Below, one piece after another: positions 29,447 to 41,309 of a stretch of DNA of 53,876 nt. Position 1 is the stretch's first letter. Each line of letters opens with the position of its first letter. The stretch lies in NCBI GenBank assembly GCA_947491475.1, contig CANLKN010000009.1, positions 1 to 53,876 of the forward strand. Direction: 5' to 3'. Below the pieces are notes generated by a model. The model saw only the letters and a program-made list of their open reading frames with translations. It was not told where the DNA came from and searched no databases. A program made the translations under genes and the position numbers. The stretch comes from Akkermansiaceae bacterium (lineage in GTDB: Bacteria > Verrucomicrobiota > Verrucomicrobiia > Verrucomicrobiales > Akkermansiaceae).

Positions 29447-30043
29447 ATGAAACGCCGGTCTTTCCTCTCGCTATCCGCGCTTTCCGCGGTGCCGGTTGTG
29501 GCAAGCGCCGCGGACGCTGCTCCCGAGGCGGATTGGTATGAAACCGTCAACTCCGACGCTCTGTCGTTCAAGGCGGTGTCCGGGGAGGGAAAGCTCGTCT
29601 TGCAGGTGGAGTTGTTCCTTCCGCCGGAGGACGAGGTGACCGAGGCCAAGGACGACAAGGGCGAACACCGCTGTTACCAATACAAGGGCAAGGATATGCC
29701 CGAACGTTTCTGGCCCGGCCAATCCATGCTCACCCGCTTCGACCTCACATGGGACGGCAAGGCGATGAAGATCCCGGAACGCTTCTGGAACGACCTCCCA
29801 GGCTTCCGCATCGAAACCTCCACGCTCGATCCGGAAGAACTCAAACCGGACCTTCAGTGGAAGGCTCTGCAGTTCCTCGAACGTCTCCGCCAACCCCGCC
29901 TCTCCCTCTCCGCCGAGGGCGGCACCGTCCTCATCGAATGGGATCGCCCCGAGGAATGCGACTCACGCTCCACCATCCGCTGGATCGTCAGCAAGTCCGG
30001 CACCGTCCTCAGACACAGACACTGCCCGCCGCATGAGTGCTGA
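29447..30043 (+). CDS. Exported hypothetical protein with possibly replaced C-terminus
   Basis: A 198-residue protein with signal peptide MKRRSFLSLSALSAVPVVASA. The mature part is acidic with aromatic residues (DWYETVNSDALSFKAVSGEG, PERFWPGQSMLTRFDLTWDG) and no domain I recognise. ATG 29447 is the natural start; the frame is open far upstream only by chance. The final residues (HCPPHEC) are read from the first copy of the 89-bp repeat, so the original end may have been lost. The preceding 29284-29446 is non-coding and carries common intergenic repeat words. Confidence 0.7.
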   Translation: MKRRSFLSLSALSAVPVVASAADAAPEADWYETVNSDALSFKAVSGEGKLVLQVELFLPPEDEVTEAKDDKGEHRCYQYKGKDMPERFWPGQSMLTRFDLTWDGKAMKIPERFWNDLPGFRIETSTLDPEELKPDLQWKALQFLERLRQPRLSLSAEGGTVLIEWDRPEECDSRSTIRWIVSKSGTVLRHRHCPPHEC

Positions 30044-30180
30044 AACCACGACACTGAATGTGAACGAGCGAGGCCTGGCCCCATCCACGATGTTCAACTT
30101 CCCAATATTCCTGTCCGCCACATGAGTGCGGATCTGCCAAACCATAATGTGAACCCGCTAGGCCTGACCACATGCATGTT
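30024..30180 (+). repeat. Two-copy diverged repeat, period 89 bp, with conserved short reading frame
   Basis: Copy 1 starts near 30024 and copy 2 near 30113. Shared words at identical 89-base offset are CCGCC/CATGAGTGC (ATG at 30033 and 30122), AATGTGAAC (30057 and 30146) and AGGCCTG (30071 and 30160). After that ATGTT recurs at 86 bases, a three-base indel. Both copies read M-S-A-E/D, then N-V-N, then G-L in frame, so change has respected codons. Confidence 0.7.
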
Positions 30181-30204
30181 GAAATGCGACACCCGCCCCC
30201 ATTC

Positions 30205-32355
30205 ATGACCCCATTCAAGATTCGTGTGTGGCTTCTGGTGAGCTTTTGGACAGCATTTCTTCTTTCATGCCAGCCCAAGAGAAATCCCACTGAAGACCGG
30301 ACTCAGGAATCACCAGGCCTGGATGCCAAGGAGGTCTTTTCGCGCAACTCCCCATCAGTCCACAAACTGAATGTGGCATCCGTCGATGGCGATCTCATCG
30401 TGGGGAGTGGATTTGTGACGATTCTAGAAGGGAAGAAGGTTCTGCTTACAAACCGTCATGTCGTGGAGAACGCGGCTGAAGTGAAAATCGATGGATCTGA
30501 CGCTGTGATCGACATCAGCAAGGACATTAAAATCGCCAAAGATTTCGATCTTGCGGTGATCAACGTTGAGGGTGAAGAATCACTTACCTCGATCCCGATG
30601 CGCACATCCCCGCTGGAGATTGGCGAGAATGTTTACACACTCGGGTATCCACATGGACTGTCCAAGGCAATCTCCCAAGGAATGCTCAACACCGAGAAAG
30701 ACGATTTTCTGGTCTTCAGCGCGGCGGTTTCAAGCGGCAACAGCGGTGGGCCGCTTTTGGACAATACAGGAAGCGTCATTGGTGTGATCACTTCTTCGTT
30801 GAAGGAGATGGAGGGCGATGTAAGCCAGAATTACAACATTGCGATCAAGGCATCCAAGATCCCGAAGTTGAGCCTGTTTGCATCACCGAAGACACATTTG
30901 TTTGCAGCATGGAAGGTGGCAACGAAGGCAGAGGCATCTCTTTATCCAATCCTTAAGGAGGTCGGGGATTGTGCGGGATACAACCAATTGATGGACTATT
31001 TGCTCGTTGCATCGTTTTTCGATCAGCTTGGAGCAAGCGAGGATGACATAGAAATCGACAGTACCTTCAAAACGCTTAAACAGGTGTCAAACGATCCCCA
31101 GAAAATGAAGAAGCTGGCAAGCATCTCCAGCAAGATTTACAGCGCAAATCTCAAGCCTGTTTTCACGAAGAACATCGAACTTCTCTCCAGCGCCCTGCCA
31201 ATCGTGGCGGATCTCAAACGCGAAATTGGGACGCTAAATAGCAACTCGCACCTAATGGAGCAAATAGCCAGCGACTCTAGAAAGATCCGCTATTTCGACA
31301 CGAGTTACGATCCAGATTTGGCTTCTCAAATGCTCGATTTTTCAATTTTCCGCTTTGAGTCTGATCTCAAAGCCAAGCTAGAGAAATATCGAATTTTTGT
31401 CGAAATCATGTCGAGAGAAGAAAAAGATAAGGCTCTATTGGCTAAGTATGTTTTTCGACATGCAGTTTCTCAACTGAAAGACTCCACCCAAGAATACTTG
31501 AAGTCGATTGCATCTGGTAAATACACGGATGATAAAGATGACTTTCCTGCCTTTAGAAAGCCCCCGGAAAAGATTGATTTCACAAGATTCAGAAGACCCT
31601 TCACACCGATTTCATCGGCAGCGATGTCAAAAATGACTACTGATTCGCTCATCGAAATACTGAGTAATTTGAATTCACCCTGTTCTCCCCTTGATCTGGA
31701 TTACAAGAGACTTAAGAAAACAGATCGTTCACACGCAGCAACGGGCGACTTTCTCAGCACATTAGTCGGGATGTATGACCGCATGATTATCGATCTGATG
31801 CAAAAAGGTTTCCTGGAAGAGGCGGGACGACTGATTTCATTGAATGACGGGCATCGTCCTCATTGTCGTACCTTCGTAAGGAGAGCCGAATTTGAATCTT
31901 TCAAGGGCAACTATGGGGCAGCGAAGGACCAATACGAAAACATGTTCCATGACCTTCCTGCGCGCTATGATCCTTTTGAATTCAAACCTACAGGAGAGCT
32001 AGGTCGTAACTTGTTATCCTTGGCGTTTGCCGGAAACATGGGAGAGAGGTTCTGTGAATATCCATCTCCATACCCCCAGCGCATGGATGGATGGGATGAC
32101 TATGTCAAGAATCTGGTGGCAGTTCCAAGCAGAAAGCCGGATGTCATTTTTTCGGAAAGGAACTTTGATTTGTACACGGACTTTCAGAAGTTTATTATCT
32201 TCTACACACATAATGGTCTGGATCTCGATTTGGAGAAGTTTCCGGCGGTTCAGAAATTTTTTATAACGATTTCTAGTTATGATGATGGCGTCAAAGATTT
32301 GAAATCGATTCAGGATGATCTCACTGAGTTCTTCTCTTTATTGTCTCAGAATTGA
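30205..32355 (+). CDS. Trypsin-like serine protease lipoprotein with long unknown C-terminal region
   Basis: A 716-residue lipoprotein (signal ending FLLSC, Cys22). Residues 50-240 form a DegP/S1C-like trypsin domain: GSGFVTILEGKKVLLTNRHVV with His85, FDLAVINVEG with Asp115, TLGYPHG, and SSGNSGGPLLDN with Ser180. There is no PDZ domain; the remaining 470 residues look helical, with no family I recognise, and include DFPAFRKPPEKIDFTRFRRP. Base composition and codon use are clearly more AT-rich than flanking genes, suggesting horizontal acquisition. ATG 30205 begins the signal peptide; the frame is open 33 bases further up. Neighbours are HigBA and a pseudogene, an accessory setting. Confidence 0.85.
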   Translation: MTPFKIRVWLLVSFWTAFLLSCQPKRNPTEDRTQESPGLDAKEVFSRNSPSVHKLNVASVDGDLIVGSGFVTILEGKKVLLTNRHVVENAAEVKIDGSDAVIDISKDIKIAKDFDLAVINVEGEESLTSIPMRTSPLEIGENVYTLGYPHGLSKAISQGMLNTEKDDFLVFSAAVSSGNSGGPLLDNTGSVIGVITSSLKEMEGDVSQNYNIAIKASKIPKLSLFASPKTHLFAAWKVATKAEASLYPILKEVGDCAGYNQLMDYLLVASFFDQLGASEDDIEIDSTFKTLKQVSNDPQKMKKLASISSKIYSANLKPVFTKNIELLSSALPIVADLKREIGTLNSNSHLMEQIASDSRKIRYFDTSYDPDLASQMLDFSIFRFESDLKAKLEKYRIFVEIMSREEKDKALLAKYVFRHAVSQLKDSTQEYLKSIASGKYTDDKDDFPAFRKPPEKIDFTRFRRPFTPISSAAMSKMTTDSLIEILSNLNSPCSPLDLDYKRLKKTDRSHAATGDFLSTLVGMYDRMIIDLMQKGFLEEAGRLISLNDGHRPHCRTFVRRAEFESFKGNYGAAKDQYENMFHDLPARYDPFEFKPTGELGRNLLSLAFAGNMGERFCEYPSPYPQRMDGWDDYVKNLVAVPSRKPDVIFSERNFDLYTDFQKFIIFYTHNGLDLDLEKFPAVQKFFITISSYDDGVKDLKSIQDDLTEFFSLLSQN

Positions 32356-33227: not shown

Positions 33228-36412
<3,185 letters not shown>

Positions 36413-36414
36413 TC

Positions 36415-38976
36415 ATGATAACCCATCAAAACCCCGCGGCGTCCACCGGCTGGCCGGCGCTGGACGACGTGCTTTGCGGCATCCAGCCGGGCGACAACAT
36501 CGTCTGGGGCGTGGACCGCATTGAGAACTACCGCAAGCTGGTGATTCCCTACGAGGCGGCCGCGCGCCGCGCCGGACGGCGCAGGATCTACTTCCGCTTC
36601 GGGCCGGACGAGCCGTTGTTGGATGGTTCCACCGGCGTGGAAATCCACGAGGTGGATCCCTTCGAGAGCTTTGAGGGTTTCATCCGCGCGGTTCATGCGG
36701 TGATCGAGGCTTGTGGTGACGGCGCGGTGTATATCTTCGATTGCATCAGCCATCTTGGCGACGCATGGCAGTCCGACCAGGCGCTCGGCAATTTCTTCAT
36801 GCTGACATGTCCGCGTTTGTATGATCTTCACACGGTCACTTATTTCGCCATCGAGCGCGAGCGCCATTCGATTCACGCGCTGGGGCCGATCCGCAAGACC
36901 ACGCAGTTCTATCTGGAGGTTTTCACGGCGGATGAGAAATTCTGCATCCGCCCGGTGAAGGTTCAATACCGCTCGCTCGCGGCGATGGATACCATCCATG
37001 TCCAGGATGGCGAACGGTTGGTGGCGGTGAACGAGAGCGCCACGCTGGCGCAAATCCTTTCGCAGACGCGCTGGCCGCGGCACTTGCGCGACCGCCGCCT
37101 CGGCTACTGGGCGCGCATGTTTCATCAGCTCGAGCGGGTGATGGATGAGAAGGCGCGCGGCACCTGTTCCCATGAGGCGGAACAGGAAATGCTCGTGGTA
37201 ATGCGGCGCGCCTTCCGCGTCCACCGATCAGGCATTTCCCAACTCGCGGAGCAATGGCTCGGGTTGGAGGACTTCGATGCCATCCGCCAGCGTCTCATCG
37301 GCGTGGGCTCCATCGGCGGCAAGGCGCTGGGCATGATCGTCGCCCGCGCGATCATCCGCCGGAATGCTCCGGACCTTTCCGCGCGGTTGGAAGTGCACGA
37401 TTCGTTTTTTGTGGGAGCCGAGGTTTTTGTGACATTTCTCGTCCAGAACGGCATCTGGTGGATCCGCGAGCGCCAGAAAAGCCCGGATGGTTTTCTTAAA
37501 AACCTCGATGAAGGCCGCGAGCGCATTCTCAAGGGAGAGTTCCAGCGTGAAGTGCTGATGCAGTTCGAGGGCATGCTGGATTACTATGGCGAGAAACCCT
37601 GCATCGTGCGTTCCAGTTCCATCCTCGAGGACGCGCGCGGCAATGCGTTTTCCGGAAAATACGAAAGCATCTTCCTCTCCAACCGCGGCTCGCGCGAGGA
37701 ACGCCTCGCCGCGCTGTTAGATGCGATTCGCCGCGTCTATGCCAGCATCCTCGATCCGGAAACCTTGCTCTACCGGAAAGCCCGCAACCTGTTGCACAGC
37801 GAGGAGCGCATGGCGCTGCTCATCATGCGCGTCTCCGGCGCGCCGCGCGGCCGCCACTTCTTCCCGCAGGCCGCCGGCGTCGGCCTTTCCTACAACCCCT
37901 ACCGCTGGCATCCCGACATCGATCCCGAGGCCGGCGTGGTCCGCCTGGTCTTCGGCCTCGGCACCCGCGCGGTGGACCGCTCGGACGACGACTACACGCG
38001 GCTGGTTTCGCTCAGCGCGCCGCAGCGACGTCCGGAATCCTCTCTCAACGAGCAACTCGACCACTCGCAACGGCGGATGGATGTCATCGACCTCAATGGC
38101 AGCGGCCTGGTTTCACTGCCGGTGGAAACCGTGGTGCCGGAATGCACGGATTTCCCGCTGGGACATTTCATCGACCACTCGAAAGGCGAGATGCCATGGG
38201 TCACTTTCAACGGCCTGATCAAAAACACCGCCGTCATCGACGACCTCAAGCTGATGCTTCGCGAGTTATCATATGCCTATCAGGAAGCGGTCGATGTCGA
38301 GTTCGCCATCAACTTCCTGTCGGATGGCAGCCACCGCATCCACCTGCTGCAATGCCGGACATTCCAGGTCCAGAAAAACGCGGGGCATGGCGGAGTCGAT
38401 CCTGCCAGTGTGCCCGGCCGCCGCATCCTGGAGGCGCGCGGCGCGGTGATCGGCCTCGGCCGCGAAGTGCCGCTGCATGACATCCTCTATGTGCCCACCG
38501 CCGCCTACGCCGCGCTTGCGGAGAACGAGCGCCACCGCGTGGCGAAGTTGATTGAGAAGCTCGTCGAGAAACACGACCCCGCGCGCAACCTGATCCTCAT
38601 CGGGCCCGGCCGCTGGGGCACCAGCAGCGCCTCGCTCGGCATCCCGGTGCGCGCCGGCCGCATCGCCATGGCCTCCGCCGTTTGCGAAGTGGTGGCCATG
38701 CACAGCGGCCTGATCCCGGATGTTTCGCTCGGCACACATTTCTTCAACGACCTGGTCGAGCACGACCTGCTTTATCTCGCGTGTTTCCCTGCAAAGCCAG
38801 GCAACGCCCTCGATGAGGACTGGCTGATGCAGGCCCCTAGCAGGACTCCCGCACTCGCGCCGGAAGCCTCCGCCTTCCATCACGTCGTGCGCTGGATCAC
38901 GGCGGACAAACTTATTTTGCACGCTGATCCGTTTCACCAAAGCGCGGCCATCCGCCTCGCTGATGTGGGTTCATGA
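36415..38976 (+). CDS. RecA/KaiC-like domain fused to PPDK-type PEP/pyruvate-binding domain
   Basis: An 853-residue protein. The first 250 residues resemble a KaiC/RecA-like fold (GWPALDDVLCGIQPGDNIVW, GAVYIFDCISHLGDAW) but the Walker A GxxxxGK(S/T) is missing. From about residue 300 comes the PEP/pyruvate-binding ATP-grasp domain of pyruvate phosphate dikinase: VGSIGGKALGMIVAR, PCIVRSSSILEDARGNAFSG (around 396-415), GRHFFPQAAGVGLSYNPY, and VDVEFAINFLSDGSHRIHLLQCR. The C-terminal part has LILIGPGRWGTSSASLGIPV. The central phosphohistidine and the PEP-TIM barrel domains of PPDK are absent, so it cannot be a complete dikinase. Two bases separate it from gdhA. A role in sensing or phosphorylation linked to nitrogen/carbon balance is inference. 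Confidence 0.85.
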   Translation: MITHQNPAASTGWPALDDVLCGIQPGDNIVWGVDRIENYRKLVIPYEAAARRAGRRRIYFRFGPDEPLLDGSTGVEIHEVDPFESFEGFIRAVHAVIEACGDGAVYIFDCISHLGDAWQSDQALGNFFMLTCPRLYDLHTVTYFAIERERHSIHALGPIRKTTQFYLEVFTADEKFCIRPVKVQYRSLAAMDTIHVQDGERLVAVNESATLAQILSQTRWPRHLRDRRLGYWARMFHQLERVMDEKARGTCSHEAEQEMLVVMRRAFRVHRSGISQLAEQWLGLEDFDAIRQRLIGVGSIGGKALGMIVARAIIRRNAPDLSARLEVHDSFFVGAEVFVTFLVQNGIWWIRERQKSPDGFLKNLDEGRERILKGEFQREVLMQFEGMLDYYGEKPCIVRSSSILEDARGNAFSGKYESIFLSNRGSREERLAALLDAIRRVYASILDPETLLYRKARNLLHSEERMALLIMRVSGAPRGRHFFPQAAGVGLSYNPYRWHPDIDPEAGVVRLVFGLGTRAVDRSDDDYTRLVSLSAPQRRPESSLNEQLDHSQRRMDVIDLNGSGLVSLPVETVVPECTDFPLGHFIDHSKGEMPWVTFNGLIKNTAVIDDLKLMLRELSYAYQEAVDVEFAINFLSDGSHRIHLLQCRTFQVQKNAGHGGVDPASVPGRRILEARGAVIGLGREVPLHDILYVPTAAYAALAENERHRVAKLIEKLVEKHDPARNLILIGPGRWGTSSASLGIPVRAGRIAMASAVCEVVAMHSGLIPDVSLGTHFFNDLVEHDLLYLACFPAKPGNALDEDWLMQAPSRTPALAPEASAFHHVVRWITADKLILHADPFHQSAAIRLADVGS

Positions 38977-40030: not shown

Positions 40031-40897
40031 TTACATGTGTTTTTTCCGGCAGTCGAGGTGCTGGTTCATTTCGATGGCGGGATTTTCCTCGCTGGCGACG
40101 CCAACGACCACGGCCGGCACGCCGGCGACGGTGGTGTGCGGCGGGACGTCGGCGAGCACCACGCTGCCGGCACCGATCTTGGCACCGGTGCCGATTTCCA
40201 CGCGGCCGAGAATTTTCGCGCCGGCACCGATGAGCACGCAGGAGCGGATGATCGGGTGGCGGTCGCCGGATTCCTTGCCGGTGCCGCCGAGGGTGACTTC
40301 ATGGAGGATGGATACATCGTCCTCAATGATGGCGGTCTCGCCGACGACAAACGAGGTGGCGTGATCGAGCAGGATGCCGCAGCCGATGCGGGCGGCGGGG
40401 TGGATGTCCACGGCGAAGGCCTCGCTGGCGATGCTTTGCAGGTATAGGGCGAGCCAGCGGCGGCGGTCGTTCCAGAGTTGGTGGGATACCCGGTAGGTGG
40501 TCAGGGCGAGGTAGCCCTTGAAAAAGAGCAGTGGTTCTAACAGCGAGAAGCAGGCGGGGTCGCGGTCGAACATCGCCCGCATGTCGCGGATGGCGCTGTG
40601 GACGATGAGCGGATGTTCCTCAAAGACGCCGGTAAGCAGCGGCTCCATGGTCTCGCGCGGCATGTCCTCGCGCGCGAGACGCCGGGCGAGCCGTGCTCCA
40701 AGCGCCGCGGCGGGGGTTTGCCGCGTGAGGATGACGTCTTCGACCAGATGGATCAGCGTGGATTCGCTGGCGGCGACCTTTTCGGCCTCCTCGCGCAGGA
40801 TTTTCCAGACGCCTTGGATGTCGGCGGATTTTCCGGCGCAAAGCTTGTTGGGAATATTGCTGGCCGCGTCGGCCGCGGTTTGTTGGGATTCGTTCAT
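40031..40897 (-). CDS. cysE: Serine O-acetyltransferase
   Basis: CysE makes O-acetylserine, the carbon acceptor for cysteine synthesis. This 288-residue form has the N-terminal helical domain (IQGVWKILREEAEKVAASE, DRDPACFSLLEPLLFFKGYL, YRVSHQLWNDRRRWLALYLQ) and the left-handed beta-helix: VDIHPAARIGCGILLDHATS, ETAIIEDDVSILHEVTLGG with the catalytic His, GTGKESGDRHPIIRSCVLIG and GAGSVVLADVPPHTTVAGVP. The start ATG (complement 40895-40897) shares two bases with the start of the opposite Rrf2 gene. The next in-frame Met lies beyond residue 75, so a later start would damage the domain. Confidence 0.95.
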   Translation of the reverse strand: MNESQQTAADAASNIPNKLCAGKSADIQGVWKILREEAEKVAASESTLIHLVEDVILTRQTPAAALGARLARRLAREDMPRETMEPLLTGVFEEHPLIVHSAIRDMRAMFDRDPACFSLLEPLLFFKGYLALTTYRVSHQLWNDRRRWLALYLQSIASEAFAVDIHPAARIGCGILLDHATSFVVGETAIIEDDVSILHEVTLGGTGKESGDRHPIIRSCVLIGAGAKILGRVEIGTGAKIGAGSVVLADVPPHTTVAGVPAVVVGVASEENPAIEMNQHLDCRKKHM

Positions 40898-40898
40898 G
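40895..40898. promoter_or_regulatory. Interlocked divergent start codons (CATG)
   Basis: The four bases CATG at 40895-40898 give the start codon of cysE on the minus strand and of the rrf2 gene on the plus strand. There is no intergenic space, so each promoter and leader must lie inside the other gene's coding sequence. Confidence 0.85.
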
Positions 40899-41309
40899 AA
40901 AATTTCTCAGAAATTGGAATACGCGTGCCGGGCACTGGTCCAGCTCGCGAAACACCATGACGGACGGACTCTTACACGGCTTGAGGATTTAGCGCAACGC
41001 GAAGCAGTCTCGGCAAATTTTCTGGTGCAGATTCTCAACGACCTGAGGCGGGCCGGGTTGGTGGATAGCCGCCGCGGCCAGGCGGGGGGCTACCTGCTGG
41101 CGCGCTCAGCGGAAACCGTGACGCTGCGCCACGTGGTGGAAGCGGTGGATCCGGCGCTGCTGCAATGCAGCGTGTCGGGCGGCGGCGAGTCCGGACAGGC
41201 GGTGCGCCATGGCTGGGAGCGGATTTCTTCCACCCTGTGCCAGGCACTGGATCAGATCACGCTTGAGATGCTGGCCAGCAAGCCGGGCGGTGAGATGTTT
41301 TACATTTGA
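40896..41309 (+). CDS. Rrf2-family transcriptional regulator (CymR-like)
   Basis: A 137-residue Rrf2 regulator. The start MKISQKLEYACRALVQLAKH is canonical; the winged helix includes LEDLAQREAVSANFLVQILN, LRRAGLVDSRRGQAGGYLLA, followed by VTLRHVVEAVDP. The region that carries three Cys ligands of the Fe-S cluster in IscR and NsrR has only one Cys here (LLQCSVSGG), so it resembles the cluster-free CymR type, which represses cysteine genes together with CysK. Sharing its start with cysE strongly suggests control of cysteine synthesis. That regulatory target is inferred from position. Confidence 0.92.
   Translation: MKISQKLEYACRALVQLAKHHDGRTLTRLEDLAQREAVSANFLVQILNDLRRAGLVDSRRGQAGGYLLARSAETVTLRHVVEAVDPALLQCSVSGGGESGQAVRHGWERISSTLCQALDQITLEMLASKPGGEMFYI

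Follow-up and report, generated by a model that had tools for sequence, protein, structure and literature searches.

The gene for serine O-acetyltransferase (cysE) and a gene for an Rrf2-family regulator (rrf2) are arranged head to head in an Akkermansiaceae bacterium, their start codons fused, and cysE transcription most likely starts inside the rrf2 coding sequence, at a stretch in which silent codon positions are nearly frozen and the spacing resembles that of a promoter. The observations are jointly best explained by a cysE promoter within rrf2, transcription of rrf2 from inside cysE and a CymR-like loop, a reading to which we assign a probability of roughly 0.6. The DNA analysed is a stretch of 53,876 nucleotides from contig CANLKN010000009.1 (hereafter the window), which was compared with related loci from other genomes.

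The tetranucleotide CATG at 40895-40898, within GATTCGTTCATGAAAATTTCTCAG, carries both start codons (Table 1), and the overlap between cysE and an Rrf2 gene claimed in a preliminary description of this DNA is thereby borne out. The cysE product matches SATase_N (96 bits) and belongs to the CysE family (TIGR01172, 222.5 bits against a cut-off of 210.65). The opposing product belongs to the Rrf2 superfamily (PF02082, 108.1 bits with a cut-off of 30; TIGR00738, 105.9 bits with a cut-off of 73.3) and begins with the conserved family start M-K/R-I-S. As there is no intergenic gap, the signals for both genes must lie in coding sequence, unless the mRNAs are leaderless. The host genome is a 3.9-Mb draft, 96.6% complete, whose closest named relatives are Luteolibacter, Haloferula and further Akkermansiaceae, mostly MAGs. 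Elsewhere in the window, 30172-32355 encodes a 727-aa lipoprotein-like protein with the trypsin-like protease pattern GNSGGPL (by eye) and forms an AT-rich island (GC 0.48 at 30001-32000 against ~0.6 around it), and 36409-38976 encodes an 855-aa protein that matches PPDK_N only at residues 301-658 and reaches no NCBIfam cut-off.

Table 1. Features of the cysE-rrf2 junction, in window coordinates
Feature	Position	Strand	Basis or remark
cysE, serine O-acetyltransferase, 288 aa	40031-40897	-	Pfam and NCBIfam matches
rrf2, Rrf2-family regulator, 137 aa	40896-41309	+	Pfam and NCBIfam matches
cysE ATG	40897-40895	-	Sequence
rrf2 ATG	40896-40898	+	Sequence
Inverted repeat AATTTC-TCA-GAAATT, rrf2 codons 2-7	40901-40915		Considered as operator
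In-frame TGA, nine bases 5′ of cysE ATG	40907-40909	-	Excludes an outer cysE start in the window
Predicted cysE transcript start	40960-40964	-	Predicted from the -10 position; codon 22 GAC nearby
Candidate cysE -10 box TAAGAG, rrf2 codons 25-27	40969-40974	-	17 nt past the -35 box
Candidate cysE -35 box TTGCGC, rrf2 codons 33-34	40992-40997	-	74/77 CATG loci
Conserved TTC 5′ of the -35 box, rrf2 codon 36	41001-41003	-	GAA in 76/77
Regulator C-terminal tail M-F-Y-I	41295-41306	+	M-[FY]-[FYH]-I ends 96/96

The position of the cysE start is central to this arrangement. In the window, GAA-ATT-TTC is all that lies between the in-frame TGA and the cysE ATG, and no further ATG, GTG or TTG occurs ahead of the SATase_N domain, which begins at residue 30. 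The cysE start is therefore well fixed in this genome, where both an upstream and an internal start were rejected, including the inner start that the preliminary description had set against its own proposal. The first ~25 residues of CysE are poorly conserved and, in the relatives that share CATG, codons 2-29 are free of ATG, GTG and TTG in 31 of 78 loci and contain at least one in the other 47, so that the start-codon test alone leaves an internal start possible there; an ATG at offset -8 was found in 7 of these 78. That the true start lies further inside and a normal gap remains is nonetheless scarcely credible, given the lack of an alternative codon in the window and the retention of the cysE ATG within CATG in most of the junctions described below.

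Loci were gathered through cysE (30 loci after a search of 37 same-genus genomes, plus 15 of the 18 stretches of another fetch) and, independently, through Rrf2 alignment (the best 80 of 115 relatives, then the best 30). A cysE match is present in each of the 110 loci obtained by the Rrf2 route. Merging of identical junctions gave 96 distinct junctions with an rrf2 match, and in all 96 the gene adjoins a divergent cysE. This set does not include L038 and L041, two contigs of the same genus that gave no rrf2 match in the fetched stretch, or L042-L049, eight cysE-like loci from distant members of the order, likewise without rrf2 match. The comparison of spacing in relatives suggested in the preliminary description yielded identical CATG in 78 of the 96 junctions and in 33/33 same-genus loci having both genes (L005-L037). 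A cultured relative, Luteolibacter pohnpeiensis (L094/L026), also has the CATG overlap. Four of the 37 same-genus genomes gave no testable pair: G010 and G028 have a partial cysE and no rrf2 match in the fetched stretch, G024 gave no match and G026 weak matches only. Fifteen of the 18 non-CATG junctions abut without overlap, the start codons being separated by 7-19 nt (the cysE ATG lies at -8 or -9 for 13 junctions and at -19 or -20 for 2), while L039 and L040, from a sister family, have gaps of 140-250 nt and L057 has a broken cysE frame. In L057 the cysE match begins at residue 146, yet neither rrf2 nor the promoter-like block is damaged, and a sequencing error or decay may be involved.

Beyond this set, cysE is divergent in 17 of 32 more distant Rrf2 loci, its ATG never lying more than 21 nt from the start of rrf2 and forming CATG in one case; the other 15, including one locus of genus g18 and the loci of family f2, have no cysE match. 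In 20 of the 21 loci of genus g24, 2 nt separate the start codons (rrf2 GTG, cysE ATG at -3); the remaining one, L274, gave no cysE match. The CATG overlap is thus not a product of chance and represents an old arrangement: abutment is the rule wherever the pair occurs in the family, and exact overlap is the most frequent form in the collected set. However, since junctions that abut or stand 2 nt apart exist, the overlap is dispensable, and because it is not strictly kept, the fused start codons themselves are probably not the switch device.

Such data also agree with ordinary compaction, in which the overlap arose once and was kept since a gap does not readily form anew, with nothing regulated through it. 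The exact overlap in most junctions and the small gaps or GTG starts of related genera are what drift under packing predicts, and this explanation is a possible one that has to be taken seriously. However, compaction accounts for CATG and not for a localised synonymous constraint that is found in two genera and absent in both controls (see below). In addition, according to the available part of one study (PMC2174442), prokaryotic genomes are strongly depleted of divergent overlaps, probably owing to the space that upstream signals require.

Evidence for regulation within the coding sequence comes from silent positions. Synonymous codon identity was compared column by column in 77 CATG loci (L107, with an rrf2 of 138 codons, was left out), near-identical pairs being removed from pairwise means (2827 of 2926 pairs kept). 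With a mean synonymous identity of 0.49, this comparison showed a localised constraint in rrf2 codons 22-36, where D22 is GAC in 75/77 loci, A33 is GCG in 74/77, Q34 is CAA in 75/77 and T27 is ACA in 63/77. Across the 340 scored columns of both genes, synonymous excess is highest at rrf2 codons 47 and 33, cysE codon 13 and rrf2 codons 26, 34, 22 and 36; five of these seven fall within 17 of the 340 columns, with a hypergeometric probability of 3e-6 for a region picked post hoc. The best run of 15 codons begins at rrf2 codon 20 and was equalled by 21 of 2000 column shuffles. cysE columns 134, 126 and 147 show a moderate excess.

A tree built on the concatenated proteins gave parsimony counts of 0 changes for Q34, 1 each for E36 and D22, 3 for A33, 4 for L47 and 5 each for L26 and T27. 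Q34, E36, D22, A33 and T27 are the least changed codons of their own residue class, and L26 is second to L47. The tree-based mean ratio of the region, chosen post hoc, is 0.55, a value reached by 0 of 20,000 random sets. In the 33 same-genus loci alone, the shuffle of codon runs was not significant (153/2000), hence the invariance of single codons is the stronger evidence. As for rrf2 codon 47 (41034-41036), which has the top synonymous excess, it is CTC in 73/77 loci and precedes the candidate -35 box by ~37 nt; it could perhaps be an activator site.

Two control sets of Rrf2 genes without a cysE match lack this pattern. In genus g2 of family f2, whose 25 fetched loci gave no cysE match, the mean excess over codons 20-45 is -0.016, and one (codon 43) of the four columns above 0.25 falls inside that range. 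In a same-genus Rrf2 paralogue (30 loci), the corresponding mean is -0.059 and the best run begins at codon 117, reached by 101/2000 shuffles. Genus g24 (21 loci), which does have the head-to-head pair, shows frozen codons 31-34, 38, 39 and 41, as well as 2 and 10, with the best run starting at codon 31 (0/2000 shuffles), and the sequence differs from the block of the first clade; the codon tables of g24 and f2 were ungapped, so that any row differing slightly in length loses its register from that point on. In one g24 locus (L255), an imperfect dyad, GATATTGC-N10-GCAATACC, was seen by eye in rrf2 codons 31-39, and the frozen block with its dyad is possibly an operator or a promoter. The block of the first clade was absent from the genera examined, g20, g22, g24, g27 and g28, of which all except g24 are thinly sampled; as the genes abut there too, the cysE promoter must differ in these genera. 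In the comparison of the four sets, silent positions of this stretch are constrained where cysE lies head to head, and the second genus has another version of the block.

A coding or translational cause, such as an overlapping ORF, mRNA structure or tRNA pausing in the HTH region, could also freeze silent positions. Over offsets 54-114, a single additional plus frame is free of stops in 54/77 loci, as are two minus frames in 56/77 and 58/77. However, none of the alternative frames stays open throughout the 77 loci, on which ground an overlapping ORF was rejected, and HTH segments of this kind are also encoded by the paralogue and by the f2 relatives, where no such cluster is seen. An explanation of this type is thus highly unlikely.

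On the cysE-sense strand, the block reads TTCnCG-TTGCGC-N17-TAAGAG, the part from TTGCGC to TAAGAG occupying 40997-40969. TTGCGC is also present in 12/16 other loci, while the second box among the 77 CATG loci is TAAGAG in 39, TAAGAC in 10 and TAATCG in 8. When 1,200 nt of both strands were scanned for TTG-N3-N16..18-TA in 78 loci, the candidate site was common to 74 in the same register; the next sites were at +47 in 26/78 (same strand) and at -39 in 9/78 (rrf2 direction). Measured against E. coli the boxes are weak, each agreeing with the consensus at 3/6 positions by eye, and a scan of 40600-41300 with the E. coli sigma-70 consensus (TTGACA/TATAAT) found no promoter. A partial likeness exists with sequences upstream of the tRNA-Arg genes of the genus, in which TTGAC-N17-TA occurs in 6/20 (missing from 14/20) and TTG-N3-N16..18-TA in 10/20; upstream of tRNA-Arg, L233 has TTGACT-N17-TAAGAC. 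Many tRNA-Phe rows have TTGTCA-N17-CTTACT instead. An earlier reading of the -10 box as TGTAAG with a 15-nt spacer was replaced by TAAGAG with N17 in view of the tRNA-Arg upstream sequences.

Given the frozen promoter-like block, the block of the second genus and two controls without either, transcription of cysE most likely begins within rrf2. Counting against the promoter model, rrf2 L47 and cysE S13 rank high in synonymous excess and have no role in it. Alternatively, the frozen block could be a protein-binding site, i.e., an operator of Rrf2 itself or of another factor, rather than the cysE core promoter. The zero synonymous changes of the Q34 codon are strict for a promoter box, the corresponding stretch of g24 holds the dyad mentioned above, and the position of the block would suit operator control of cysE. 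In the main block, however, no dyad was seen by eye, and two boxes at 17-nt spacing suit a promoter better. Moreover, the composite motif matches the locus in 32/37 same-genus genomes and only one further site, against 6 for a reversed control pattern, unlike a regulon operator, and a shared regulon operator was rejected on this basis; the motif has no match in 5/37 genomes (two mismatches allowed), of which G033 has the gene pair. We therefore consider a protein-binding site in place of the core promoter rather unlikely.

The preliminary description had placed each promoter within the opposite gene. For cysE this is supported by a synonymous footprint with promoter-like geometry, but for rrf2 no widely shared site was found, TTG...TA in its direction being common to at most 9/78 loci. 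A putative rrf2 -10 box, TnTGTT at -17..-12, was discarded since its near-invariant bases are non-wobble positions of cysE, the wobble bases being variable. The cysE S13/K14 block is weak as a -35 box of rrf2 because AGC/AGT is a two-codon box. The inverted repeat in rrf2 codons 2-7 was rejected as an operator, these codons showing no synonymous excess, although by parsimony changes codon 7, within the repeat, is the ninth lowest. Akkermansia muciniphila belongs to the same family as the host. In that species, 10% of the start sites are leaderless by Cappable-seq, as stated in the available part of the report (PMC4782308). Leaderless or near-leaderless initiation is thus possible for rrf2.

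The regulator was previously described as CymR-like. By the formal test it is not CymR proper, with 75.8 bits against a cut-off of 195 for the CymR equivalog NF047409, and it is not IscR either (TIGR02010, 74.6 bits, cut-off 207.55; PRK10857, 62.4 bits, cut-off 275). In IscR-type Fe-S regulators, three Cys are conserved between residues 90 and 105; in this region the regulator has Cys91 in 35/78 loci and Cys99 in 1/78, C11 being found elsewhere in 75/78. Among solved structures, 2y75, presumably CymR of B. subtilis, comes top for the family profile, while the top hit of the single regulator protein is IscR 4hf0. A second Rrf2 of the genome (L050, 1845-2435) contains a Cys-rich stretch, CCASENAYQPCSCPDEEHC, and lies beside a permease-like ORF (by eye); this paralogue may perhaps sense a metal or Fe-S.

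The likeness to CymR rests further on the C-terminal Ile tail. Arguing against its specificity, Ile is also the last residue in 14/15 Rrf2 relatives that do not adjoin cysE. According to the available parts of two papers, C-terminal Ile motifs of CysE and CdiA dock into CysK, and CymR is cited as well (PMC12895370, PMC4961446); the available part of another describes sensing of O-acetylserine (OAS) by the CymR-CysK complex (PMC2940859). A cysK above the cut-off is present in the host genome, with TSGNTG and QFDNPANP. The CysE of the window ends in KKHM, without the C-terminal Ile that is a feature of CysE in the cysteine synthase complex; this Ile is kept in 20/33 same-genus and 50/95 complete CysE sequences, as compared to 96/96 for the regulator. 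Hence the earlier label is partly supported, by the tail and the family profile but not by the formal cut-off or the single-protein structure match, and it is plausible from the sequence that the regulator acts like CymR.

The mechanism that we propose has its main step at the block, where TTGCGC-N17-TAAGAG on the minus strand would act as the cysE promoter. The cysE RNA would begin near 40962, and its leader of ~65 nt would be antisense to rrf2 codons 1-22. Secondarily, rrf2 would be transcribed from within cysE with a short leader or none, so that the transcripts would overlap at their 5′ ends and two polymerases would face each other. In a third step, CysK may dock on the C-terminal Ile tail of the regulator and let go of the regulator when O-acetylserine rises. 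With O-acetylserine as the product of CysE, the loop would be closed on cysE and rrf2. The complete version, i.e., a gap-free mutual switch with the cysE promoter in the HTH part of rrf2, rrf2 transcribed from cysE, antisense 5′ ends and O-acetylserine read via CysK, remains tentative and, as a whole, somewhat doubtful.

The locus suggests that a conserved pair without any gap is possible when the adjacent gene accommodates the promoter in its silent codon positions. It offers a testable case of a transcription factor gene whose segment for DNA binding would at the same time serve as promoter for the probable target gene, as well as a candidate for CymR-like cysteine control in Verrucomicrobiota. 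If the proposal is true, one stretch of DNA encodes a DNA-binding domain, the promoter of the target and an antisense leader together, and the switch has been kept through most of a bacterial family and rebuilt with a different sequence in a second genus. A search of one literature library found no paper joining verrucomicrobi-, cysE and Rrf2, and none on the locus among the matches listed.

In known cysE-iscR neighbourhoods, cysE and an Rrf2 gene lie in the same direction. The same two gene families adjoin here, but the orientation is divergent and the Rrf2 protein is without the three-Cys cluster of IscR. In coliphage 186, the face-to-face promoters pR and pL show transcriptional interference. 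Convergent promoters drive a regulator and an opposing gene in the phage, as proposed here, with the difference that both promoters would sit in protein-coding sequence in the present case and that a candidate exists for one only. The antisense leaders of excludons are usually long, whereas a leader of ~65 nt and fused start codons are predicted and found, respectively, at this locus. If the model is right, the 5′ transcript ends would be mutually antisense, a likeness to excludon-type divergent transcription as described in the available part of PMC7154746. The closest parallel in cysteine control is CymR-CysK of Bacillus subtilis and Staphylococcus aureus, which, in the available parts of the sources, shares with the present locus an Rrf2 regulator, the cysteine pathway, a C-terminal Ile tail and the OAS signal, the latter being a proposal here (PMC12895370, PMC4961446, PMC2940859). 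It differs in that the regulator described here scores below the CymR cut-off, belongs to another phylum and is encoded head to head with cysE.
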